Shown piece by piece: positions 8,361-30,574 of a stretch of DNA of 64,000 nucleotides (its first letter is position 1; each line of letters begins with the position of its first letter). The notes under the pieces are model-generated. The model searched no databases. It worked only from the letters and a program-made list of their open reading frames with translations, and was not told the origin of the DNA. A program made the translations under genes and the position numbers. The stretch is from Candidatus Latescibacterota bacterium. Lineage in GTDB: Bacteria > JAAXHH01. The stretch lies in the NCBI GenBank assembly GCA_022821085.1, contig JAJEEG010000006.1:1261330-1325329 (forward strand), given 5' to 3'.

Positions 8361-9677
8361 TCATCGGTTTCCGTCTACGTCTTCCGGGTTGAGATAGGAC
8401 CCGTCCACGCCGCCATCCGCGTTTACTTTTAACGGTTCGCCTTCATCCAGTTCGATCACGATTTCCTTCGCCCGGACCACGTTATGCCCGGTCGGGCCCC
8501 TGTCGAGCGCCGACGGATTGTAGGTACTCACCGCGTTCCCTTGCGCGGTGATCATCCTGACCGATTCGCCCTCGAAGTCCACGATCATACTTCGGCCTTC
8601 GATGGTGCTGCGGCCGGCCTGGCCAACCTGGCCAGCCTGGCCAGCCCGGTCAGCCTGGCCCGTCTGTTCCGCCTTTTCCGCCAAGTCGTCCACCTGGTCC
8701 ACCCGGGCGGCCGCCTGATCGGCCCCTTCCGCGGCATAGGAACCCCGGGCGTTGCCCGTAACCAGGGCGCGTGCGACCTCGCCGTCCTCCATTTCGAGGA
8801 TGATCTCATCCCCGGTGATCTCGCTGTGGACGCTGCGTATCACCGGATTGCCGAGAAGATCGATCTGTTGGCCGCCGCTGTCATAGTGCAATGTATCGCA
8901 AATCCCTTCCAGCGTACCCTTCACGACGCTGACCGAATCGAACACGTCGGCGGTCCGGTCTTCGAAGGCGTAGGTCATGCCTTTCCCGGTCGCCACGATC
9001 TCGCCCTCATCGCCTTCCAGTCGCTTGACCAGCTGGGGCTTCCCGCTGAATCGAGCGCTATCCGTCGCTTTGAAATACTCCGCGTGATCACAATAAATGG
9101 TCACGCCTTCGCCCTCGTCCACCACGATGACGGACTCCTTCGCCAGCGCTTTCAGCAGGGAACTGGATTCGGTGAAGTAGTACTCAAGACGAAAGCCCTC
9201 GATGTTGATCCTGCTTTCGTTCTGGCGCCAGGTCATGTTCGGCTTGCCCGTCGCCACGGCGAGATGAGGTTCCTGGGTGAATACCATGCGGTCGCCCGTC
9301 AGCACCACGCCGTCCAACGCGTCGTCGAGCCTCACCCGCCCCGCTCCGATGGCCCGCTCATCCTCCTCGTAGTACACCGCGGCGTCGGCGGTGAGCGTGG
9401 TGGTCCCGCGGATCATGCGTACGTTGCCGAAAAGACGCACGATGCCGTTCAAGCGATCATAGTTCACCAGGTCACTCGTCAGCACGGTTTCTCCGTGCCT
9501 GAGCCGCACTGACCCGGTCAGGTCAAAAACCTCGTCTCCACCGATAGACTGGAAGCTTCCCGCTTCCTCGATTTGCACCGGTTCGCGGCGTTCCTGTCCC
9601 TTTGCCTGAGCGGCAGAAAGCACGACGAAACAGCAGACCGAAATCAGCCACCTGACAGACCCTGAACCACGATACAT
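8361..9677 (-). CDS. LptA/OstA-like LPS transport protein, long form
   Basis: A periplasmic protein of about 438 residues with OstA/LptA beta-jellyroll repeats (e.g. GNVRMIRGTTTLTADAAVYY, GDRMVF, ATGKGMTYAFEDRTADVF). These form the groove of the LPS bridge between inner and outer membrane. It is far longer than the 180-residue E. coli LptA and resembles the multi-repeat OstA-like proteins of FCB bacteria. A signal peptide ends near SAAQAKG. I prefer the ATG at 9677; a TTG at 9704 with a GGGGG upstream is the alternative. Residues about 335-353 are a QAGQVGQAG low-complexity insert. The gene lies between lptC and lptB. Confidence 0.85.
   Translation of the reverse strand: MYRGSGSVRWLISVCCFVVLSAAQAKGQERREPVQIEEAGSFQSIGGDEVFDLTGSVRLRHGETVLTSDLVNYDRLNGIVRLFGNVRMIRGTTTLTADAAVYYEEDERAIGAGRVRLDDALDGVVLTGDRMVFTQEPHLAVATGKPNMTWRQNESRINIEGFRLEYYFTESSSLLKALAKESVIVVDEGEGVTIYCDHAEYFKATDSARFSGKPQLVKRLEGDEGEIVATGKGMTYAFEDRTADVFDSVSVVKGTLEGICDTLHYDSGGQQIDLLGNPVIRSVHSEITGDEIILEMEDGEVARALVTGNARGSYAAEGADQAAARVDQVDDLAEKAEQTGQADRAGQAGQVGQAGRSTIEGRSMIVDFEGESVRMITAQGNAVSTYNPSALDRGPTGHNVVRAKEIVIELDEGEPLKVNADGGVDGSYLNPEDVDGNR
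8618..8671 (-). repeat. 9-nt tandem repeat inside the lptA-like gene
   Basis: Five or six copies of a 9-nt unit, cctggccar on the plus strand, starting at 8618 and degenerating toward 8671. In frame they encode the Gln-Ala-Gly rich stretch inserted between jellyroll strands of the LptA-like protein. Confidence 0.85.
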
Positions 9678-9753
9678 TATACCGGAAAATCCGTTGGACG
9701 TCAAGGATGCGTGCCCCCTGTGAAAGCGGTCGAAGTACTACTCGGCGAAGGAG

Positions 9754-10380
9754 TCATTGAGGTTGCGCATCCGGCAGAAAACGGCCTTTGATATTGCGCT
9801 GGATGATATACCTTCTCATGCCCGGATCGGCTTCAAACCCATCGCCCGCAATGACATCCGTGTCCCCTGTCAAACGTACGGCGGCATCCGTAACGATGAG
9901 ATTCGCCGTGTTCAACCAGGTCAGGGAATCGGTTTCCAGGGTGCCCCGCTCCGTGCTGTGGACCGTGACGCCGCCCCGGACGCGCAGGTTGTGGGTCTGG
10001 CCGTCGATTTCGCCCCACTCCGCTTCGAGCGTCGAGGCCAGGCTGCCGTCCTCTTCAAAGAACTCGACTTGGATGCCCTCATCAAGGACCGTGACGTTGG
10101 TTTCCGAGAAATACAGGCGGTGCCCGGCCCGGATCGTGGCTTCCTGCCGGCCGTCCCGGCTCAGGTATATCGTCGTGTTCCACGCTTCCTGGTCCGGCAG
10201 CACATCCTGCGTGCCGTCTTCCGGGGCCGGCTGATCGACGGGTTGGCATGCCGCCGCGAACAGGACAGCCGCGCACAGGTGGAAGGCCATGGCCAGGCGC
10301 CACGGCCGGAAGCGGGCGTGCCTTTTGGATGCGTGGTGATACAGGCGAGACGGAACACGTGGATTGCAGGTAGTCGGCAT
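9754..10380 (-). CDS. lptC: LPS export periplasmic protein LptC
   Basis: A 208-residue member of the LptC family, which accepts LPS from LptB2FG and passes it to LptA. A hydrophobic N-terminal segment ends in a lipobox-like FAAAC at about residue 45, so it may be a lipoprotein, as in other LptC-like proteins outside gammaproteobacteria. The core shows repeated strands such as EADWG-type beta turns, LEAEWGEIDGQTHNLRVRGG and LETDSLTWL. The ATG at 10380 gives a long basic leader; Met31 is an alternative with no better ribosome site. It lies directly upstream of the lptA-like gene. Confidence 0.85.
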   Translation of the reverse strand: MPTTCNPRVPSRLYHHASKRHARFRPWRLAMAFHLCAAVLFAAACQPVDQPAPEDGTQDVLPDQEAWNTTIYLSRDGRQEATIRAGHRLYFSETNVTVLDEGIQVEFFEEDGSLASTLEAEWGEIDGQTHNLRVRGGVTVHSTERGTLETDSLTWLNTANLIVTDAAVRLTGDTDVIAGDGFEADPGMRRYIIQRNIKGRFLPDAQPQ

Positions 10381-10484
10381 GCCTGAATATACCTGATTTC
10401 ATCCGTACCTGCAAGATCAAGTTGGGCCGGTGACGATGGATCAAACCAGCCTGGAAGCCTTGTCGGTTCTCCACGGAAGCATTG

Positions 10485-11381
10485 TCAAACCTCCCGGGAC
10501 GCCTTCCAGCGGTCGTGCATCCATACCCACTGCGTCGGCGCTTTCCTGATGAACCGTTCCAGTTCCCGGGTATACGCCCTGGTCGTTTTTTCCACATCTT
10601 CCGAGGTCCGTCCGGCGGGCCGGATCGGCGGCCGGACCGTCAGGAGATGCGTGTCGTCCGGAAGACGGTGAATGGCCATGGGAACGATAGGCGCTCCCGT
10701 CCGGTCCGCCAGCACCGCGGGTCCGGTCGGGGTCCGGGCCGGGTGGCCGAAGAAGGGTACCGCGACGCCGGCGCCCCGGGTATCCTGGTCCACCAGGAGC
10801 CCCACGACATGCCCTTTTCTCAGCGCGCGTAGTATGGCGGTCGTGGCCCGGTCGCGAGGAACCACTTCCAGTCCGCTCCGCACTCGGTTCTCCAGCAGGA
10901 GCGCGTCCAGCCGGGCGTCGTAAAGCGGGGCCGCCACCACGGTTACCGCGAATCCCTTGAGCGCCAGGTACGCGCCCATCAGTTCGAAGTTGCCCAGGTG
11001 GGCGCTCACCGCTACCACGCCCTTGCCGTCGCCATAGGCCGATTCCAGGTGGGACAGGCCGTCGGCCCTGACCAGTCCGTCCACGTTCTCCGCCGTGACC
11101 CGGGACAGCCGGGCGACATCCACGACGTTTTGTCCCAGCTCCCGGAAGACGGTCCGGCCAAGACGCCTGATCTGCCTGCGCGGCTGCGCTTCACCGTAGG
11201 CCAGCGCCAGATTGGAAAGGGCACGGCGCCTGGGACCACAGGCGGCCAGGTAAGCCAGTCCGCCGATCCACCCGCCGACGGACAACGCCCGCCGCCTCGG
11301 CAACGCGTTCATCAGGCCGATGAGCGCGCATACCGCCCGATAGATCACGGCATTTCGCATGCGCTTGATCAAAGAAGCCAA
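10485..11381 (-). CDS. LpxL/HtrB-type lipid A (lysophospholipid) acyltransferase
   Basis: A 298-residue inner-membrane acyltransferase expected to add a secondary acyl chain to Kdo-lipid IVA. The active-site block is SAHLGNFELMGAYLA, with the catalytic His and acidic partner in the HX4E spacing used by this family. Downstream GLLVDQDTRGAGVAVPFFG and RTPTGPAVLADRTGAPIVPM are typical substrate-pocket motifs. An N-terminal hydrophobic segment anchors it. It lies between lptC and kdsA, which fits a lipid A role. Acyl-chain preference cannot be read from the sequence. Confidence 0.9.
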   Translation of the reverse strand: MASLIKRMRNAVIYRAVCALIGLMNALPRRRALSVGGWIGGLAYLAACGPRRRALSNLALAYGEAQPRRQIRRLGRTVFRELGQNVVDVARLSRVTAENVDGLVRADGLSHLESAYGDGKGVVAVSAHLGNFELMGAYLALKGFAVTVVAAPLYDARLDALLLENRVRSGLEVVPRDRATTAILRALRKGHVVGLLVDQDTRGAGVAVPFFGHPARTPTGPAVLADRTGAPIVPMAIHRLPDDTHLLTVRPPIRPAGRTSEDVEKTTRAYTRELERFIRKAPTQWVWMHDRWKASREV

Positions 11382-15767: not shown

Positions 15768-15795
15768 TTGAATATCCGGGGCAGTCGGATATATT
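15768..15795 (+). promoter_or_regulatory. Sigma-70 promoter of the sugar kinase gene
   Basis: TTGAAT (15768-15773), a 16-base spacer, and TATATT (15790-15795) form a plausible housekeeping promoter. It lies about 55 bases before the ATG of the kinase and is divergent from the helicase promoter. It would drive the kinase and nucleotidyltransferase together. Confidence 0.55.
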
Positions 15796-15851
15796 ATGGC
15801 GGATCGATACCAACCCCTTCGTCCGGAGCATGAAACGCGGGATCAATTTAA

Positions 15852-17309
15852 ATGCTGGATTGCCTGACGGATCGAGGAAACCTGCCCGCAGACGCGGAGG
15901 CCTTCGAGCACGCCTTGGCCTGCACGCCGGACAGTCCTTTCGGCCCGCTGGGGACGCGCTTCGCGGCAGGTAAGCCGATCTACGTCGTCCGGGCACCCGC
16001 ACGACTCGACTGCATGGGCGGCATCGCGGACTACAGCGGTTCGCTGGTCTGCGAGATGACCCTCGACCGTGCCGTGCTGATGGGCCTTCAGGCCCGGGAC
16101 GACCGGAAGGTGGTCGTGCACAGCGCCGGCGTGGACGAATTGGGCCTTTCTCCGGACGTTACACTGGTGCTCGACGACCTGGCGCCGGGTCCGGGCACCG
16201 TGGATTACGATGCCGTAAAACGGCGTTTCTCCAGCGCGCCGGAATCCGCCTGGGCGGCCTATGTTGCCGGGGCTTTCAGCGTGCTGCAGGGCGAAGGGCA
16301 TATGGAACGATTCCCCCACGGCGCCACGATCGTGCTGGGGAGCAACATCCCGCTCCGGGTCGGCGCGTCCTCATCGGCCGCGCTGGAAATCGCGGCCATG
16401 CACGGACTGAGCCTGCTCTACGGGATCAACCTGGACGGGATGACGCTGGCCGTCCTTTCCCAGAAGGTGGAAAATCACGTGGTCGGCGCGGCCTGCGGCA
16501 TCATGGACCAGGTCACCTGTGCAATGGGTACTCGGGGCCGCCTGCTTTCCCTGCTATGCCAGCCCCATACCGTGCGGGAACAGATTCCGATCCCGGACGA
16601 GGTACGAATTGTCGGCATCAACTCCGGCATCCGCCGTGAAATCAAGGGGGCCAGGTATACGAACAGCAGAATCGGCGCATTCATGGGCCTGGCGATCTTG
16701 CAGGATCATTTTCGGTCCGGCAACGGAGCCGCCGCGAATCTCCGCCTGGGATACCTTTGCAACCTGTCCACGACCGAATATGTGGATTCCTGCCGGTCCC
16801 TGTTGCCATCAAGCATCTCGGGTCGGGCGTTCAAAAGGCGGTACGGAACCACGCCGGATCCCGTGACGACCGTCGACCCGAAGGTGGTGTACAAGGTGCG
16901 CAGCCGCGTGGAACACCCGGTGTACGAACACCGCAGGGTGACCGACTTCACCGAGTGCATCCGGCTGGCGGGGTCTTCTGTACAACCGAAACTCCTCGAA
17001 CGAGCGGGCAGGCTGATGTACGCCTCGGACTGGAGTTACACGCACCGGTGCGGGCTCGGGTCGGCCGAAACGGCCTGGATCGTCAGGGAAACGAGAAAAC
17101 TGGGGGTGGAAGCGGGATTCTACGGAGCCAGGATCACGGGCGGCGGAGCAGGCGGGACGGTCGCCGTCGCGGGCAACGACCGCATGTTCGACCACCTGGA
17201 CCATCTGCTGGAACGTTACGGCGAAGCGACCGGGATCGAGGCCGAGCTCTTTACGGGCACTTCGCCCGGCGCCCTCGAGTTCGGGCATCGCATCTATCGC
17301 AGAACCTGA
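15852..17309 (+). CDS. GHMP sugar kinase, L-arabinokinase/galactokinase-like
   Basis: A 485-residue GHMP kinase. The sugar-binding motif is APARLDCMGGIADYSGSL (residues 48-65), the ATP loop is RVGASSSAALEIAA (169-182), and the third motif is GARITGGGAGGTV near residue 430. MGGIADYSG replaces the GEHTDYNDG of galactokinases and is, from memory, the form in the kinase domain of plant L-arabinokinase. Other stretches also recall that domain: VENHVVGAACGIMDQVT, GINSGIRREIKGARY, YLCNLSTTEY, DPVTTVDP and TSPGALEFG. The expected reaction is phosphorylation of a free sugar at C1. A GalU-like nucleotidyltransferase follows after 34 bases, suggesting a salvage route to a nucleotide sugar. The ribosome site is weak. 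The substrate is inferred. Confidence 0.8.
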   Translation: MLDCLTDRGNLPADAEAFEHALACTPDSPFGPLGTRFAAGKPIYVVRAPARLDCMGGIADYSGSLVCEMTLDRAVLMGLQARDDRKVVVHSAGVDELGLSPDVTLVLDDLAPGPGTVDYDAVKRRFSSAPESAWAAYVAGAFSVLQGEGHMERFPHGATIVLGSNIPLRVGASSSAALEIAAMHGLSLLYGINLDGMTLAVLSQKVENHVVGAACGIMDQVTCAMGTRGRLLSLLCQPHTVREQIPIPDEVRIVGINSGIRREIKGARYTNSRIGAFMGLAILQDHFRSGNGAAANLRLGYLCNLSTTEYVDSCRSLLPSSISGRAFKRRYGTTPDPVTTVDPKVVYKVRSRVEHPVYEHRRVTDFTECIRLAGSSVQPKLLERAGRLMYASDWSYTHRCGLGSAETAWIVRETRKLGVEAGFYGARITGGGAGGTVAVAGNDRMFDHLDHLLERYGEATGIEAELFTGTSPGALEFGHRIYRRT

Positions 17310-17343
17310 GTTCTCACGGTGGATTTGAAGGAGTTGGATCGGT

Positions 17344-18315
17344 TTGAAACAAATACGAAAGGCAGTCATCCCCCTGGCGGGTCACGGGATGCGCATGTTG
17401 CCGGCGACCCGCGCCGTGCGCAAGGCGCTCTTCCCCATCGTGGACGCCTGGGGACGGGTATGCCCCGTGCTGCAATTGATCATCGAGGAAGCGGTCGACG
17501 CGGGGATCGAGGAAATCGGCCTGGTGATCGCGCCGGAAGACGAGGTACTGATCCGCGCCTACTTCTCGCGGTTGCCCGGCCCGCTGAAATCCGCGATCGG
17601 AAACCGAGCGGACCTGCTCGCCGCGGCCGGATTCCCCGGCGAACTTTCGGAGAAGCTGACAATCATCACGCAGGCTCGTCCCCTGGGGTTCGGCGACGCG
17701 GTCCTCCGCGCGGAAACCTGGGCCGGCGGCGATCCGGTCCTGGTCATGCTCGGCGATCACCTGTACATCAGCGGGGAGGACCGGTGCTGCGCGCGTCAGT
17801 TGCTGGACGCCTTCGCGGAACGGCAGGCGCCGGTTTCGGGCGTGATCCGCAAATCCGTCAATGACATCGGCCACTTCGGTACGGTCTCCGGCCGTCCCGT
17901 ACCCCGGCGGGACGGACTCTACGAACTCGACACCGTATTGGAAAAGCCCGAGCCGGACCTGGCGCGGGAACGGCTGCGCGTGGTGGGCATGCCGGCGGAC
18001 ACCTACCTGTGCTGGTTCGGCCTGCACGCCATGACGCCGGATATCTTCGATTGCCTGGCTCGGACGGAAAGAGATGGTGCGGCGGTAGGCGGCGCGGCGG
18101 TAGGCGGTGCGGCGGTAGGCGGTGCGGCGACAGGGGGCGAACTTCAGCTCACAGGGGCGCAGGCCATGCTGGCGTCTCAACGGGCGTACTTCGCCCTGGA
18201 AGTAAACGGCGATCACTTCGACACGGGCTCGCCGCATGGCTACGTGGAGGCCGTTGCGGCTTTCGCCGGTCCAAAGGGCACTCGTCGGTCCGGAGGACCC
18301 TCCACAATATCCTGA
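17344..18315 (+). CDS. Divergent GalU-like nucleotidyltransferase
   Basis: A 323-residue nucleotidyltransferase of the UTP-glucose-1-phosphate uridylyltransferase type. The signature reads AVIPLAGHGMRMLPATRAVR: the usual G-x-G-T-R has Met in place of Thr, and the ATK Lys is Arg, so activity or specificity may have shifted. The metal-binding GDHLY and the segment LEKPEPDLARERLRVVG, with a YFALEVNGDHFDTGSP-like C-terminal block, fit GalU. Start is a TTG at 17344 with AAGGAG ten bases before it. Residues about 245-264 are four AAVGG-type units from a 15-nt repeat. It follows the GHMP kinase and probably turns that enzyme's sugar-1-phosphate into an NDP-sugar (inference). Confidence 0.75.
   Translation: MKQIRKAVIPLAGHGMRMLPATRAVRKALFPIVDAWGRVCPVLQLIIEEAVDAGIEEIGLVIAPEDEVLIRAYFSRLPGPLKSAIGNRADLLAAAGFPGELSEKLTIITQARPLGFGDAVLRAETWAGGDPVLVMLGDHLYISGEDRCCARQLLDAFAERQAPVSGVIRKSVNDIGHFGTVSGRPVPRRDGLYELDTVLEKPEPDLARERLRVVGMPADTYLCWFGLHAMTPDIFDCLARTERDGAAVGGAAVGGAAVGGAATGGELQLTGAQAMLASQRAYFALEVNGDHFDTGSPHGYVEAVAAFAGPKGTRRSGGPSTIS
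18076..18135 (+). repeat. 15-nt tandem repeat in the GalU-like gene
   Basis: Four copies of ggtgcggcggtaggc, the last one degenerate, at 18076, 18091, 18106 and 18121. They encode a Gly-Ala-Ala-Val-Gly stretch in a surface-loop position of the nucleotidyltransferase. Confidence 0.9.
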
Positions 18316-18450
18316 CACCAGGAAACTAACGGAAGGATGGCAACATGCATGGGTGTAAATGCATGAAATCCATGATAACCGCTTAACCCATTGACGGAAC
18401 GATACATCGTCCAACAAGCCTGTCCAACATGCGAAAGGGAATACGATACC

Positions 18451-19167
18451 ATGTCCGAACAGCAAGCACCCTCGCGGGAAACGCTCGAATCCCTCCTCGT
18501 TCCGAGTACGGCCACGCTGACCTCCGTACTCACGGAATACGGCCTGTATAACACGTTCATGCAGGACGTCGCGCCCCTGGCCCAGGGCATGCGCATGGCC
18601 GGTCCGGCATTTACGCTCCGGTACATACCCGGCCGGGAAGACATCACGCACGTGCCCGTGGACAACCTGACGGACATGCAGCGGATCGGCATCGAAAGCA
18701 TCGGGCAAGGCGAGGTGCTCGTGATCGACGCGCGGGGAGACACCCGGGCCGGCGTCATGGGCGACATCCTCGCCACGAGGATCCTGCAGCGCGGCGCCGC
18801 GGGGGTGGTGAGCGACGGCGCGTTCCGGGATACGCCGGCCATCGTCGAAACCGGGCTCCCTGCCTATGCGAAGGCCATGAACGCCCACAACAGCAAGAGC
18901 GTGCACTACCCGAGCGATATACAGCGTCCCATCGCCTGCGGCGGCGTAGCCGTGTTCCCCGGAGACCTCATCGTGGGCGATGCGGAGGGCGTCGTGGTGA
19001 TCCCGCGCCACCTTGCCGAAGAAGTAGCGGCTAAGGCCGCGGCGCAGGAGGACCGCGAAGTCTTCATCCTGCAGAAGATCCAGCAGGGCGCCAGCATCAT
19101 CGGCGTCTACCCGCCCGATGAAAAGACCCTGGCCGAATACGAAGCCTGGAAGGCGAAAAAGGGCTGA
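18451..19167 (+). CDS. RraA-like protein (4-hydroxy-4-methyl-2-oxoglutarate aldolase family)
   Basis: About 238 residues of the RraA/HMG aldolase fold, whose members are class II pyruvate aldolases, oxaloacetate decarboxylases or RNase E regulators. The metal/substrate block is GVMGDILATRILQRGAAGVVSDGAFRD-like (in two parts here), with Asp-Arg residues of the SDGAFRDT segment, then GDLIVGDAEGVVVIP. The ATG at 18451 is preceded by AAAGGGA; an ATG at 18391 adds a Cys-containing leader atypical of the family. It follows the nucleotidyltransferase after 135 bases and faces the convergent MFS-HEAT gene. An aldolase or decarboxylase role is more likely than RNase E control, but the substrate is unknown. 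Confidence 0.8.
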   Translation: MSEQQAPSRETLESLLVPSTATLTSVLTEYGLYNTFMQDVAPLAQGMRMAGPAFTLRYIPGREDITHVPVDNLTDMQRIGIESIGQGEVLVIDARGDTRAGVMGDILATRILQRGAAGVVSDGAFRDTPAIVETGLPAYAKAMNAHNSKSVHYPSDIQRPIACGGVAVFPGDLIVGDAEGVVVIPRHLAEEVAAKAAAQEDREVFILQKIQQGASIIGVYPPDEKTLAEYEAWKAKKG

Positions 19168-19171
19168 TCGT

Positions 19172-21478
19172 TCAGCCGGTGGCCAGGTCCGCCATTCGCT
19201 GAAAGGCCACCACCGCCAGCAGTCTCTCCTCGGCGTGCAGTGTCCTGCTCCGGCCTTCCGATTCCAGGTCCGCCAGGATGCTGTACGCCAGGTCGATGTC
19301 GTCCGGACCGGCCGCAGATCCTCCCGCGGAGGCCGCATCACCGGCCGCCCGATCCGCACCCGCTTCTCCGGCGATGTCCCGGGCGATCTCCACGAGCCGT
19401 TTCAGCACCTCACCGGTCTGCTGGCGCTCGAACGCGGCCATGGCGCGGTCGACGGCTTCCGTGAACCGGTTCCTTGCATCTTTTTCGACACGCGACCAGC
19501 CACCCAGTTGCCGGCGGGCGGTCCGGAATATCCTCACCGTCGCACGGTCCTGGTCCATCTCGCCGGACTGGAGTAACCGGTACAAGAGATCCGGTGCGCC
19601 GAGGAGATGCCCCGCCGACATGACCAGCACACCCCGCTCGAGGCTGGTTTCACTGGTGCGTATGAGGTCCTGAAGCCGCCCCAAAATGCCGGTATTGCCC
19701 ATCCTGGCCAGCGTCTCCAGGGCGGACTGGATGATCGCGGGGTCCCGCTCGTGCTCGAGCAGGGCTTCCAGCGCGGTTTCCGCGCGGCGGTCCCCGATGC
19801 GATCCAGGGCGAGTATGGCGCTCCGACGGATGCCCGGGCGATCGTCGTGAAGCAGGGTCACCAGGATGTTCAGGCTGAGTGACGAAGGCACCGCGCCCAG
19901 GGCTTCCACGGCCTCTTCGGCGATGTCCGACGATGGGCTGCCCACGCATTCGAGCAGCGGATTCACGGCCTCCACCGCGCCGATCCTGCTCAGGGACTGT
20001 ACGGCTTCCCGGCGCACGTTGCGGTCGCTGTCTTCCAGCAACGCGATCAATTCGTCCACGGCCAGGTGACTGCCCGTTTCTCCGAGCTCACGGGCGGCCC
20101 GTGCCCGGACCGAGGGATTGCTCGATTTCCCCATGCGCACCAGGTGCCACAGGGTCGCGATGGGATTCCCCTTGCGCACGCGGTTGATCACGTCCCGGGA
20201 TGAAACCTGCGTATCGGAGGTCACGCGGGCAAGCAGGCCCATGTAGGCGATGCGCAGCGCCCCGTTGGCAAGGAATAGGTACTGCAGGCCCGCGAAGGTG
20301 TAGCCGAAGAAGGAGACGGCGGGGATGGAGGTGCACAGATCGGCCGCAATGCCGCCCAGTACGGCGCCACAGGCCGCGCACCCTCTCGACACCGCGGAAT
20401 AGCATCCCAGGAACGCGGAGCGGTTGACCGCCGGGGCCGTCTTGACGATGAGATTGAACCGGGCGGTGCCCCAGCCCGCGCTCATGCTGCCGCCCCAGAT
20501 CTGTACCAGCGGCACCATGATCCAGTAGTTTTCCAGGGTCACGAATCCCCATCCCAGTGGGAAGAGGGCCAGCCCCACGGCGGTAAGCGACATGACCGGC
20601 TTGTACCCGTACTTGTCCGCCAGGTAGCCCCAGAAGGGGTTCATGATGATCGTGGCGATAGTCTGTATGGCCGAGTAGATCGCGACCTGGGCGTAGGAGA
20701 CCTCCAGCGTCCGCAGCATGTAGACGGTGAAAAAAGGCGCGGCGATCTGGGCGATGAGGAGCCGCCCCGATACCAGGAACATCAGTCTGCGAAAGGGAAC
20801 GTGCCGGAAGGGCAGGCGAAGCAACTGGTTCGAAGGGACGTGTTCTCCCCGGCTCTTCTGCGGTTCGGGAATGCGGGACCACGCCCAGACCCCGAAGCCG
20901 GAGAAGACCACGGCCGTGATGAACAAGGTGGTGAAGCCTTCCTGCTCATCTCCCGCGGCGTACGAACTCAGGAAGAACCCCGCGCAGACCGACGTGATCA
21001 GACCGGCGGACGCCGTCAGACTGCGCTGCCTGGCGACGAAGCGGCCGCGCATCTCGGCGGGAACCAGGTCGGTTAGCCAGGACTGGCGCGCCGGGGAAAC
21101 CAGGGACATGGCCGCCTTCGACAGGGCGATGCAGCCCATGAGCGCCAGCACCTGGTATCCCTCGAAGAAGAGAAAGGGGATGAAGGCAATGGGCAGCCAG
21201 AACGACGAACTGATGGCATTAGCGGACAGGCACAGCGTCTTGCGCCTGGGCAGGCGTTCGATCAGCAGCGGCGAGAAGGCCTGAAGCAACTGGGCGATGG
21301 AAATGGACGCGGAGATAAAACCGATCATGGCGGTGGATGCGCCGAGATGCAGCGCGTAACCCGTAGTGTAGACGCCCGTGGTAATCGCCGAATGAACCGA
21401 CTCGAGCATGCCGTTCACGTTCCACATGCGCATCCCGCGCGCCGTTTGAAGCCGGGTCAGTTTCTTATCCTGCTGCAT
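19172..21478 (-). CDS. MFS transporter fused to C-terminal HEAT repeats
   Basis: A 768-residue fusion. Residues 1-430 form a 12-helix major facilitator module (GASTAMIGFISASISIAQLL, the loop LPRRKTLCLSANA, LTDLVPAEMRGRFVARQRS). Residues about 440-630 are HEAT/PBS-type alpha repeats (RARAARELGETG, VRREAVQSLSRIG, IRRSAILALDRIG), followed by a helical tail with an Ala/Gly-rich spacer. The HEAT part should face the cytoplasm. Start 21478 has GGGA nine bases upstream and overlaps the symporter stop by 14 bases. The MFS substrate is unknown. The HEAT tail might bind a partner or gate transport. Confidence 0.85.
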   Translation of the reverse strand: MQQDKKLTRLQTARGMRMWNVNGMLESVHSAITTGVYTTGYALHLGASTAMIGFISASISIAQLLQAFSPLLIERLPRRKTLCLSANAISSSFWLPIAFIPFLFFEGYQVLALMGCIALSKAAMSLVSPARQSWLTDLVPAEMRGRFVARQRSLTASAGLITSVCAGFFLSSYAAGDEQEGFTTLFITAVVFSGFGVWAWSRIPEPQKSRGEHVPSNQLLRLPFRHVPFRRLMFLVSGRLLIAQIAAPFFTVYMLRTLEVSYAQVAIYSAIQTIATIIMNPFWGYLADKYGYKPVMSLTAVGLALFPLGWGFVTLENYWIMVPLVQIWGGSMSAGWGTARFNLIVKTAPAVNRSAFLGCYSAVSRGCAACGAVLGGIAADLCTSIPAVSFFGYTFAGLQYLFLANGALRIAYMGLLARVTSDTQVSSRDVINRVRKGNPIATLWHLVRMGKSSNPSVRARAARELGETGSHLAVDELIALLEDSDRNVRREAVQSLSRIGAVEAVNPLLECVGSPSSDIAEEAVEALGAVPSSLSLNILVTLLHDDRPGIRRSAILALDRIGDRRAETALEALLEHERDPAIIQSALETLARMGNTGILGRLQDLIRTSETSLERGVLVMSAGHLLGAPDLLYRLLQSGEMDQDRATVRIFRTARRQLGGWSRVEKDARNRFTEAVDRAMAAFERQQTGEVLKRLVEIARDIAGEAGADRAAGDAASAGGSAAGPDDIDLAYSILADLESEGRSRTLHAEERLLAVVAFQRMADLATG

Positions 21479-22985
21479 GATTCGATTTCCCATTACGCGC
21501 CAGTATCCAGCTGACCGCCGTGCCGACCCCCAGGTTCACGGCCAGGGCCACGGGACTGATCCACATGAAGCTGACCGGGTCGTTCCCATCGGGCAACATG
21601 CCGAAGAGCGGACCGGAAAAGGCGATCAGCGAGGCGGTGAGGACGCCGCACGCGGCGCCCGCGACGACGCCTGCGGGGCGGGCGAAGGGCACGAACAGCG
21701 CGAAGAAGAACAGGGCGAATATGGGCGTCGTCAGCAGGTTCGAGGTCTTGTTGGTCACCGCCGTGATGTTGCCGGGCACCAGTTCCATCAGCGAACTCGC
21801 GCCCACGGCAATGGCGCCGATGACGAATGCGAGCGTTTTCGCCGTGCGGGTAAGCTGTTTTTCGGAAACCGTCGATCTCCTGAACCGGTCGATGAAATCC
21901 GTCGAAACCACCGCCGTAATCGCGTTTACGCCCGAGTCCAGGCTCGACATGGCGGCCGCGAACATGGCGGCGACTACGAACCCGGATACGCCTGGCGGAA
22001 GGTAGTAGGCGATAAAGTGGGGAAACACATGGTCGGCCTGTCCGTACAGGTCGGCGCCGGCAGGCAGCAGACCGGGTTGCGTCTGAAAGAAGCCGAGGAG
22101 GGCGAAACCCGCGACCCACAGGGTGACCCCGATGCAGAGTCCCACCAGTTGCTGAGTCAGGTAGGATCGCCGGGCCGCGCGGGCGTCGGTGGTCGCCATG
22201 AAACGCTGCACCACGGTCTGGTCGCCTCCTGCGGTGGCGATCGCCCACGTCATGGACGCCATCATGGATCCGATTACGGTCAGGCGTACGGACGGGTCCA
22301 GGCTGAAGACGGGTTGGGCGTCCCAGTGGGGCTGCCAGGAGCCTGGAATCCAGCCGAATCCGTCGAAATGCATCGTAACCGTGACGATCACCAGTATGGC
22401 GCCGCCGAGCATCAGCAGCGTCTGGAGCGTATCGGTGATCACGACGGCCCGCAGGCCGCCCAGCGACGTGTATATGACCGCGACGAGCCCGGTAACCAGG
22501 GTGATGACGGGGATCCAGTCATCGCCCACGCCCAGCATGACGGTCATGGCCTTGGCGGACAGGTAGATCAGCAGGGCCATCCAGACCAGCCGGAGCAGGA
22601 TGAACATCACCGCGCCCAGCAGGCGGATGCCCACGCCAAGCCGGTCTTCCAGCAGTTCATAGGCGCTCGTCACCCGCGTCCGCATGTAAACGGGAATCAG
22701 TCCGTAGCCCACCACGAAAAAGATGATCGGAATCGTCAGGTAGTTGAGCATCCAAACGGGCCCCTTGCCGATGGCCTCGCCCGGAATGGACAGGTAGGAG
22801 ATGGTACTGAGCAGCGTGGCGAACAGCGAGAAGCCGATCAGCGTCGGCGGCATGCGGCCCCCGCCGGTGAAATACTCGCTGACGGTGCTTTGCCTGCGGC
22901 TGTAGTAATAGCCCAGCGAAATCGTCGCCAGGGCGTATCCGATGATGATGGTCCAGTCGACGGGCGTCAGTCCGCCGGGAGTCAT
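21465..22985 (-). CDS. Sodium:solute symporter family (SSS) transporter
   Basis: A 506-residue integral membrane protein of the SSS/LeuT fold. It begins DWTIIIGYALATISLGYYYS and carries the family region YFTGGGRMPPTLIGFSLFAT and WALPAGADLYGQADH-type loops; thirteen or so hydrophobic segments follow. The ATG at 22985 is chosen over 23114 because the extra N-terminal 43 residues are charged and unlike the family. Sugars, sialic acid, proline and short organic acids are all possible substrates. It overlaps the MFS-HEAT gene downstream, so the two transporters are probably co-expressed. Confidence 0.88.
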   Translation of the reverse strand: MTPGGLTPVDWTIIIGYALATISLGYYYSRRQSTVSEYFTGGGRMPPTLIGFSLFATLLSTISYLSIPGEAIGKGPVWMLNYLTIPIIFFVVGYGLIPVYMRTRVTSAYELLEDRLGVGIRLLGAVMFILLRLVWMALLIYLSAKAMTVMLGVGDDWIPVITLVTGLVAVIYTSLGGLRAVVITDTLQTLLMLGGAILVIVTVTMHFDGFGWIPGSWQPHWDAQPVFSLDPSVRLTVIGSMMASMTWAIATAGGDQTVVQRFMATTDARAARRSYLTQQLVGLCIGVTLWVAGFALLGFFQTQPGLLPAGADLYGQADHVFPHFIAYYLPPGVSGFVVAAMFAAAMSSLDSGVNAITAVVSTDFIDRFRRSTVSEKQLTRTAKTLAFVIGAIAVGASSLMELVPGNITAVTNKTSNLLTTPIFALFFFALFVPFARPAGVVAGAACGVLTASLIAFSGPLFGMLPDGNDPVSFMWISPVALAVNLGVGTAVSWILARNGKSNHAAG

Positions 22986-29173: not shown

Positions 29174-30574
29174 TTGAGTCGCGGCAAACCCAATATCCTG
29201 TTTTTCTTTACCGACGACCAGCGCTTCGATACGATTCACGCGTTGGGCAATCCCCTGGTTCACACGCCTGTCATGGACCGGCTGGTCGCCCGGGGCGTGT
29301 CATTTACACACGCCCATATCCCCGGGGGTACATCGGCCGCAATTTGCATGCCCAGCCGGGCCATGTTGCATACCGGCCGCACCCTCTTCCATCTCGACGG
29401 CGCCGGCGCGGACATACCGCCGGAGCACGCGCTGATGGGGGAATACCTGCGGTCCCACGGCTACCGCACCTGGGGCACGGGCAAGTGGCACAACGGCGTC
29501 TCGTCCTACGCCCGCAGTTTTTCGGACGGTGCGGAGATCTTCTTCGGGGGCATGGACGACCACTGGAACGTGCCGGTCTTCGACTTCGACCCGGAGGGAA
29601 AGTACGAGGGTACGCTGCCCCAGTGTCCCGATGCCTTCCGCTCGAACGAACTGAATATCCGCAGAGGGGACCACGTGCACGCCGGACGGCACTCCAGCGA
29701 GATCTTCGCCGACTGTGCCGCAGAATGGCTGAAGGGGTATGATTCCGAAGATCCCTTTTTCATGTACGTCTCCTTCATGGCGCCTCACGACCCCAGGACG
29801 ATGCCGCGTGAGTTCCTGGACATGTATGATCCCGAGGACATCCCGCTGCCGCGGAACTTCATGGGCGGCCATCCCTTCGACAACGGCGACCTGAAAGTGC
29901 GCGACGAAGTCCTGGAGACGTTTCCTCGCGATCCGGCGGGCGTGCGTCGCCACATCGCCGAATACTACGCGATGATAACCCATCTCGACGCGCAAATGGG
30001 GCGGGTCATGCAGGCGCTGGAAGACCGCGGCATGGCGGACGACACCATCGTCGTCTTCGCCGGGGACAACGGCCTTGCGATCGGCCAGCACGGGCTGTTC
30101 GGCAAGCAGAACCTCTACGAGCACAGCATACGCGTGCCCCTGGTCTTCTCCGGACCTGGCATCCCCCGCGGTGTCCGGCGCAGCGCTTTCGCATACCTGC
30201 TCGATATCTTCCCCACCCTGTGCGATATGACGGGATTGGTAACGCCCGGTTCCGTGGAGGGGGTTAGTCTGGTACCGACGTTGAAAGATCCTGCCGCACG
30301 CCCGAGGGAAACGCTGTTCGCGGCTTACCGCCAATGGCAGCGCATGGTGAAGGACGGCCGGTTCAAACTGATCGAGTACGTGGTCGACGAGCGCCGGACG
30401 ACGCAGCTGTTCGACCTGGAACACGACCCGATGGAATGCCGCAATCTGGCCGGCGAAGCGGCGCATGCCGACCGGCTTGCGGCCCTTCGGTCCAGGCTTA
30501 CCGACTGGCGGGACGAATGGGGTGACGCGGACGGCGAATGGGGCCGGGCCTTCTGGGCCGGGTACGATGCTTGA
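29174..30574 (+). CDS. Sulfatase of the alkaline phosphatase superfamily
   Basis: A 466-residue sulfatase hydrolysing sulfate esters of sugars, polysaccharides or lipids. The formylglycine motif C-x-P-S-R is Cys58-Met-Pro-Ser-Arg62, in ICMPSRAMLHTGR; a maturase is required and none is seen nearby. Metal ligands come from FFTDDQRFD (Asp14, Asp15) and from FAGDNGLAIGQHG. Start is TTG at 29174 with AAGGGA about eight bases before. There is no clear signal peptide, so the enzyme may be cytoplasmic. It stands alone between divergent and convergent genes. The substrate is unknown; iduronate or choline sulfatases have a similar layout. Confidence 0.9.
   Translation: MSRGKPNILFFFTDDQRFDTIHALGNPLVHTPVMDRLVARGVSFTHAHIPGGTSAAICMPSRAMLHTGRTLFHLDGAGADIPPEHALMGEYLRSHGYRTWGTGKWHNGVSSYARSFSDGAEIFFGGMDDHWNVPVFDFDPEGKYEGTLPQCPDAFRSNELNIRRGDHVHAGRHSSEIFADCAAEWLKGYDSEDPFFMYVSFMAPHDPRTMPREFLDMYDPEDIPLPRNFMGGHPFDNGDLKVRDEVLETFPRDPAGVRRHIAEYYAMITHLDAQMGRVMQALEDRGMADDTIVVFAGDNGLAIGQHGLFGKQNLYEHSIRVPLVFSGPGIPRGVRRSAFAYLLDIFPTLCDMTGLVTPGSVEGVSLVPTLKDPAARPRETLFAAYRQWQRMVKDGRFKLIEYVVDERRTTQLFDLEHDPMECRNLAGEAAHADRLAALRSRLTDWRDEWGDADGEWGRAFWAGYDA

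Follow-up and report, generated by a model that had tools for sequence, protein, structure and literature searches.

A putative salvage operon pairing an L-arabinokinase-like GHMP kinase with a GalU-like nucleotidyltransferase in little-studied bacterial phyla

Introduction

In plants, ARA1 acts as an L-arabinose 1-kinase, after which a UDP-sugar pyrophosphorylase takes over (PMC12281597, PMC5897480); at its N-terminus ARA1 also has a putative glycosyltransferase domain (PMC12281597). A comparable coupling of a GHMP sugar-1-kinase to a nucleotidyltransferase is found in FKP (PMC11982464, PMC3347535), and galactose salvage via a UDP-sugar pyrophosphorylase is known from Leishmania major (PMC4722067). 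Here we analyse two genes in a 64,000-nucleotide stretch of a Candidatus Latescibacterota genome (the window, meaning the whole stretch). A first-pass annotation had read them as an L-arabinokinase-like GHMP kinase followed by a divergent GalU-like enzyme, which together could convert a free sugar to a sugar-1-phosphate and then to an NDP-sugar, a plant-like route placed next to LPS genes.

Results

Organization of the locus

The ORF listing confirmed both reading frames and their common direction (Table 1). They are separated by 34 nt, with an AAGGAG about 10 nt upstream of the TTG start of the second gene, and a consensus-match scan detected no terminator-like site between them. The nearest relatives of the window are MAGs labelled Gemmatimonadetes or Latescibacterota. 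Within its genus, dN/dS was 0.16–0.23 for the kinase and 0.22–0.29 for the nucleotidyltransferase, indicating purifying selection on both.

Table 1. Positions of the features discussed in the text, numbered from the first nucleotide of the window
Feature	Position	Strand	Description
Sigma-70-like promoter match	15768..15797	+	Upstream of the kinase; consensus match only
Kinase gene	15852..17309	+	ATG start, 485 aa; putative GHMP-family sugar-1-kinase, ARA1/AbGHMP-like family
Sugar-site motif RLDCMGGIADYS	16002..16037	+	Residues 51-62; aligned with the galactokinases of human and P. furiosus and with 96 family members
CGIMDQ	16494..16511	+	Residues 215-220; holds catalytic Asp219 (= GALK1 Asp186) and Gly216 (= Gly183)
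Middle segment	16746..16935	+	About 60 residues (about 299-361); GYLCN...LP..I.G..F..YG.T.DPVT.VDP...Y.VR...HP.YE
Nucleotidyltransferase gene	17344..18315	+	TTG start, 323 aa; GalU-like NTP_transferase, putative dedicated partner of the kinase
15-bp tandem repeat	18076..18129	+	Lies within the nucleotidyltransferase gene (3.6 copies); encodes AVGGA repeats in a loop region
RraA-like protein gene	18391..19167	+	Next after the pair; Pfam/NCBIfam profile matches

The RraA-like gene was considered as a third operon member and rejected; it was found after the pair solely in the window genus, so its product probably does not belong to the conserved system. The suggested functional link to LPS genes did not hold up either: kdsA, kdsB, an acyltransferase gene and lptB are encoded on the other strand beyond gatC and pcrA, and relatives from other phyla have no such neighbours, so we see no meaningful connection to LPS biosynthesis. 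Elsewhere in the window, positions 19172-21493 (-) encode a 773-aa protein in which an MFS transporter domain precedes HEAT repeats, an unusual domain arrangement that is conserved across the window genus, and a sulfatase-like gene (29174-30574, +) matches arylsulfatase and choline-sulfatase models below cut-off.

The kinase belongs to a sister family of galactokinases

Profile searches assigned the kinase to the GHMP superfamily (Pfam GHMP_kinases_N, 4e-16), with the galactokinase signature PF10509 below cut-off (19.1 vs 23.1 bits) and the NCBIfam galactokinase models far below theirs (144.9 vs 443 bits; 144.4 vs 226.65 bits for TIGR00131). Its best solved relative was 9ulx/9uly, 'AbGHMP' (residues 12-481, E 8.7e-98, about 40% identity), and true galactokinases followed far behind (1e-26 and weaker); a literature search retrieved no paper on AbGHMP/9ulx, its source or its substrate. 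Relatives were collected by a scan seeded with MGGIADY[SC] and GA[PA]CGIMD, which found 450 in named genomes, the best 80 of these being retained; the conservation of these two motifs across the family is therefore in part a product of the search. Two trees (110 and 42 rows) each placed all galactokinases on one side of a branch and the kinase family on the other (support 100 or 100/100). This phylogenetic comparison had been proposed by the first-pass annotation, and on its outcome the window kinase is not a galactokinase proper but belongs to a separate bacterial family that is sister to the galactokinases.

The GHMP fold, the catalytic Arg and Asp and the sssA motif place the protein on the galactokinase branch of the superfamily, while MGGIADY, the LP..I.G..F..YG.T.D.VT segment, the GGG.GGTV block and a clade shared with 9ulx are features of ARA1/AbGHMP-like proteins. 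All of the blocks cited at first reading (MGGIADYSG, VENHVVGA, GGGAGGTV and TSPGALEFG) are present. The middle segment is flanked by two blocks alignable with galactokinases, has no counterpart in the galactokinase alignments, and is conserved in A1/A2 and 9ulx. An AlphaFold2 model built from 29 sequences (pLDDT 90.7), which supersedes an earlier one from 6 sequences (pLDDT 73), had as its closest folds galactokinases with bound galactose, with TM-scores reaching 0.91 when normalized by target length; 9ulx was not among the best 50 structure matches in the fold library search.

The sugar pocket has lost the galactokinase Glu-His pair

Alignments with 1wuu and 1s4e were used to assign pocket positions in human GALK1 numbering. 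Arg51 and Asp60 of the window kinase correspond to Arg37 and Asp46, and Gly57 and Ile58 stand in place of Glu43 and His44, so that the Glu-His pair of the galactokinase GEHTDY motif is missing. Across the 96 family members, the equivalents of Arg37, Asp46 and Tyr236 are invariant, and those of Gly183 and Asp186 are kept in 95. Glu43 is replaced by Gly in all 96 and His44 by Ile (80) or Val (16), in an alignment whose scan seeds contain this motif. In established galactokinase structures (1WUU, 1S4E), Glu43 and His44 contact galactose O6, and Asp46 and Tyr236 contact O3/O4. The loss of the first two residues with Arg37, Asp46 and Tyr236 retained predicts a substrate with the galacto arrangement at C2-C4 and no polar O6/C6 hydroxyl. 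L-arabinopyranose is galactose without C6, and we regard L-arabinose as the best candidate and leading hypothesis for the main substrate, at about even odds. AraA was not found in the window genus, so that ordinary arabinose catabolism via this enzyme appears to be lacking there.

The partner enzyme forms its own clade

The nucleotidyltransferase matched Pfam NTP_transferase (7e-12) and scored 132.7 bits against the NCBIfam galU cut-off of 326.8 bits. Because no enzyme of the window phylum passes this cut-off, housekeeping GalU included, clade membership is the stronger test. In the tree, the nucleotidyltransferases linked to the kinase group in a single clade (98/98), which includes two unlinked relatives and excludes housekeeping GalU; the linked enzymes share a 5-residue insert. 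A separate housekeeping GalU is encoded in the window genome. In agreement with the initial description, the partner is thus GalU-like and divergent.

In the motif alignment, the enzyme retains the Lys of KxLFP as well as GD, EKP and FDTG. The GxGTR loop of other members reads GHGMR in the window enzyme and GHG[LVI]R elsewhere in the genus, and the window-genus enzymes have KALFP instead of KELFP. Given these changes, including the loss of the loop Thr, the nucleotide preference or activity of the window-genus enzyme may be altered. The AVGGA repeats of the window enzyme were not seen in the inspected leading part of the relatives' alignments.

The pair recurs across genomes and alternates with a galT operon

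Conservation of the gene pairing was surveyed in 16 genomes of the window phylum. Kinase and nucleotidyltransferase were adjacent and intact in all 14 kinase carriers, which argues that their neighbourhood is not due to chance. G006 has neither gene, G014 has a relative of the nucleotidyltransferase without this kinase, and in G015 a related nucleotidyltransferase also occurs away from the kinase. Outside the phylum, with names taken from MAG labels, the pair was found in Armatimonadota (L040), Actinomycetota (L052, which may be mis-binned and is close to the Calditrichota locus L053), Poribacteria (L059), KSB1 (L074, L093) and Anaerolineae/Chloroflexota (L109). The pairing state requires 6 changes on the kinase tree, at least five of these changes being forced by well-supported branches. 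Near-overlapping genes were seen in L040 and L074, and in L052 and L074 an inositol-monophosphatase (IMPase)-like protein lies between kinase and nucleotidyltransferase. Gene order and phylogeny indicate that this nucleotidyltransferase is dedicated to the kinase and that their partnership is conserved.

Of a further 61 members with sufficient flanking sequence, most (largely a single Poribacteria lineage) have no nucleotidyltransferase beside the kinase; sponge-type Poribacteria make up the bulk of the retrieved relatives, and most of them have the kinase with neither the nucleotidyltransferase nor galT alongside. Partners vary among subclades, with a mannose-1-P guanylyltransferase-like enzyme near the family kinase in L044. 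In about 40 Poribacteria loci (L048-L110), outer-membrane efflux and HlyD-type genes lie upstream of the kinase, and genes for a DUF6785/DUF6784 protein and a PorV-family protein downstream. L051 encodes a GH36 enzyme (8925-11114) 1.6 kb from a family kinase, with beta-L-arabinopyranosidase as its top NCBIfam match, far below cut-off.

A different arrangement was found in the phylum of G076, where 13 of 298 sampled genomes carry the kinase family: all nine extended loci (L150-L158) have the order galT, IMPase-like gene, kinase. In G238 the last two share one 860-aa open frame (L150:3872-6451), a natural fusion linking both functions. The IMPase-like protein of these loci keeps the DPIDGT motif, with a weak PF00459 score; our guess is that it may remove excess sugar-1-phosphate. 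A search of the window phylum, run without a positive control in those genomes, found no IMPase-like phosphatase. In KSB1, galT also lies near the kinase in L085 and L103, the L103 gene exceeding the galT_1 model cut-off. GalT likewise converts a sugar-1-phosphate to a UDP-sugar, so partners of the same chemical step replace each other, and galT and the nucleotidyltransferase look like alternative activators of the sugar-1-phosphate beside the same kinase.

Possible kinship to the plant enzyme

For comparison with the plant enzyme we used a provisional ARA1 sequence in place of a database record. Its kinase domain showed 39.5% identity with the window kinase and 54.8% with AbGHMP, with the same pocket letters, and in our tree this provisional sequence nested inside the bacterial AbGHMP subclade (12 rows, 100/100), not beside the window kinase. 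With this as a lead, plant L-arabinokinase apparently belongs to the bacterial family. The resemblance to ARA1 first reported for the window kinase is also seen with this provisional sequence, the pocket replacement and the family blocks being common to both. The wording 'plant-like' is better reversed: the family, as sampled, is mainly bacterial and the provisional plant protein sits inside one of its subclades, away from the window kinase. A 952-aa open frame in L098 was considered as a possible bacterial counterpart of ARA1 complete with its N-terminal domain, and rejected: its first 473 residues match nothing and resemble an unused, spurious high-GC frame.

Discussion

Family membership, intact catalytic residues, an altered pocket, a conserved operon and a separate partner clade can all be read from the sequences, and the conversion of sugar to sugar-1-phosphate to NDP-sugar proposed at first reading is still the best account of them. 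What follows on the anomeric site of phosphorylation, the identities of sugar and nucleotide and the use made of the product is our inference. The two genes would form a small salvage operon, in which the kinase would use ATP to phosphorylate a free galacto-configured sugar that has no C6 hydroxyl, most likely L-arabinopyranose, at its anomeric hydroxyl. The GalU-like enzyme would then combine the sugar-1-phosphate with UTP, or another NTP, and the resulting NDP-sugar, UDP-L-arabinose should the sugar be correctly predicted, would serve glycan synthesis. We estimate the probability of this reading as a whole at roughly 0.6; that the kinase is an anomeric sugar-1-kinase feeding a nucleotide sugar, whichever sugar this may be, is very likely.

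The operon might instead combine a diverged galactokinase with a UDP-galactose pyrophosphorylase, in a galT-free Leloir variant leading from D-galactose through Gal-1-P to UDP-Gal. Galactokinases share the fold and are the nearest solved enzymes after 9ulx, a sister subclade adjoins galT as a galactokinase would (with the L103 galT above its model cut-off), and the UDP-sugar pyrophosphorylase salvage of L. major provides a precedent (PMC4722067). However, both O6-binding residues are replaced in 96/96 members, and the family lies outside the galactokinases in our trees. Moreover, an ordinary galactokinase is also encoded in 9 of the 11 galT-operon genomes, where it scores above cut-off, with a complete, separate galT-galK pair in G238, and in three pair carriers of the window phylum (G012, G013 and G015); this coexistence argues against galactose as the substrate. 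The redundancy argument fails in the window genus, where neither a canonical galactokinase nor galT was found, a lack that is itself in keeping with galactose use. Overall, we consider this alternative unlikely, although it deserves to be taken seriously.

That the sugar is galacto-configured with a changed C6 (D-fucose, D-galacturonate or a C6-modified galactose) and is not L-arabinose seems to us quite improbable. Loss of Glu/His would drop O6 recognition and leave the C5 substituent unfixed, Ile/Val would suit an apolar group, and partners vary by subclade between GalU-like, galT and the mannose-1-P guanylyltransferase-like type (L044); a uronate, in contrast, needs a basic residue, and none is present at the Glu43/His44 positions. 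The pocket letters of ARA1, in the provisional sequence used here, are also the same. L-arabinose is the substrate of ARA1 (PMC5897480), and the GH36 enzyme near the L051 kinase points the same way through its best, if sub-cut-off, match to beta-L-arabinopyranosidase. We give very little credence to the idea that the genes are mere neighbours with no common pathway and the nucleotidyltransferase a spare GalU: the 14/14 adjacency in the phylum, the recurrence under other phylum labels with about 5-6 state changes on the tree, the clade distinct from GalU and the near-overlapping genes in L040 and L074 outweigh the 61 other members, most without an adjacent nucleotidyltransferase, and the related nucleotidyltransferases of G014, which lacks the kinase, and of G015, where one lies apart from it.

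On the preferred reading, L-arabinose salvage through kinase and nucleotidyltransferase, a sugar salvage route resembling that of ARA1 seems to exist in bacteria. A broader proposal, which we put forward tentatively and think somewhat doubtful, is that little-studied phyla run ARA1-type salvage of L-arabinose (or a 6-deoxy/pentose galacto-sugar) with exchangeable activators (galT plus an IMPase-like phosphatase, or else enzymes of a new subfamily related to GalU), and that plant L-arabinokinase was acquired from this family. If true, a two-step salvage of L-arabinose or a related sugar, so far described in plants, would extend to bacteria, its dedicated nucleotidyltransferase would be named and a bacterial source of plant ARA1 indicated, and genes annotated 'galactokinase', 'GalU' or 'GalT' in these genomes would need re-annotation. 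The swap of nucleotidyltransferase and galT beside the same kinase would offer a clean natural experiment on sugar-1-phosphate activation.

Compared with known systems, the window kinase shares its fold, catalytic Arg/Asp and the Asp46 and Tyr236 equivalents with GalK (human GALK1, P. furiosus, L. lactis), but differs in the replaced Glu43/His44, the extra middle segment, its separate clade (100/100) and its scores far under the model cut-offs. AbGHMP (9ulx, 9uly) matches it over the whole length, including the MGGIADYSG motif, the middle segment and a C-terminal GGGSGGTV block; it sits, however, in another subclade, alongside galT-operon relatives. The nucleotidyltransferase has the NTP_transferase fold family and the Lys of KxLFP, GD, EKP and FDxG motifs in common with GalU, and is set apart by its low score (132.7 vs 326.8 bits), the 5-residue insert and its own clade (98/98). 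With ARA1, in the provisional sequence, the kinase shares the pocket letters, with the E-to-G and H-to-I/V replacement, and the family blocks, whereas the N-terminal domain of the plant protein is missing from the bacterial kinases, the 485-aa window protein beginning at the kinase domain, and the plant partner is a UDP-sugar pyrophosphorylase where here it is a GalU-like enzyme. FKP follows the same two-step logic as the window pair, but as a single fused, GDP-specific protein acting on L-fucose/D-arabinose, whereas the window has two genes, with the kinase on the galactokinase branch of the GHMP superfamily.
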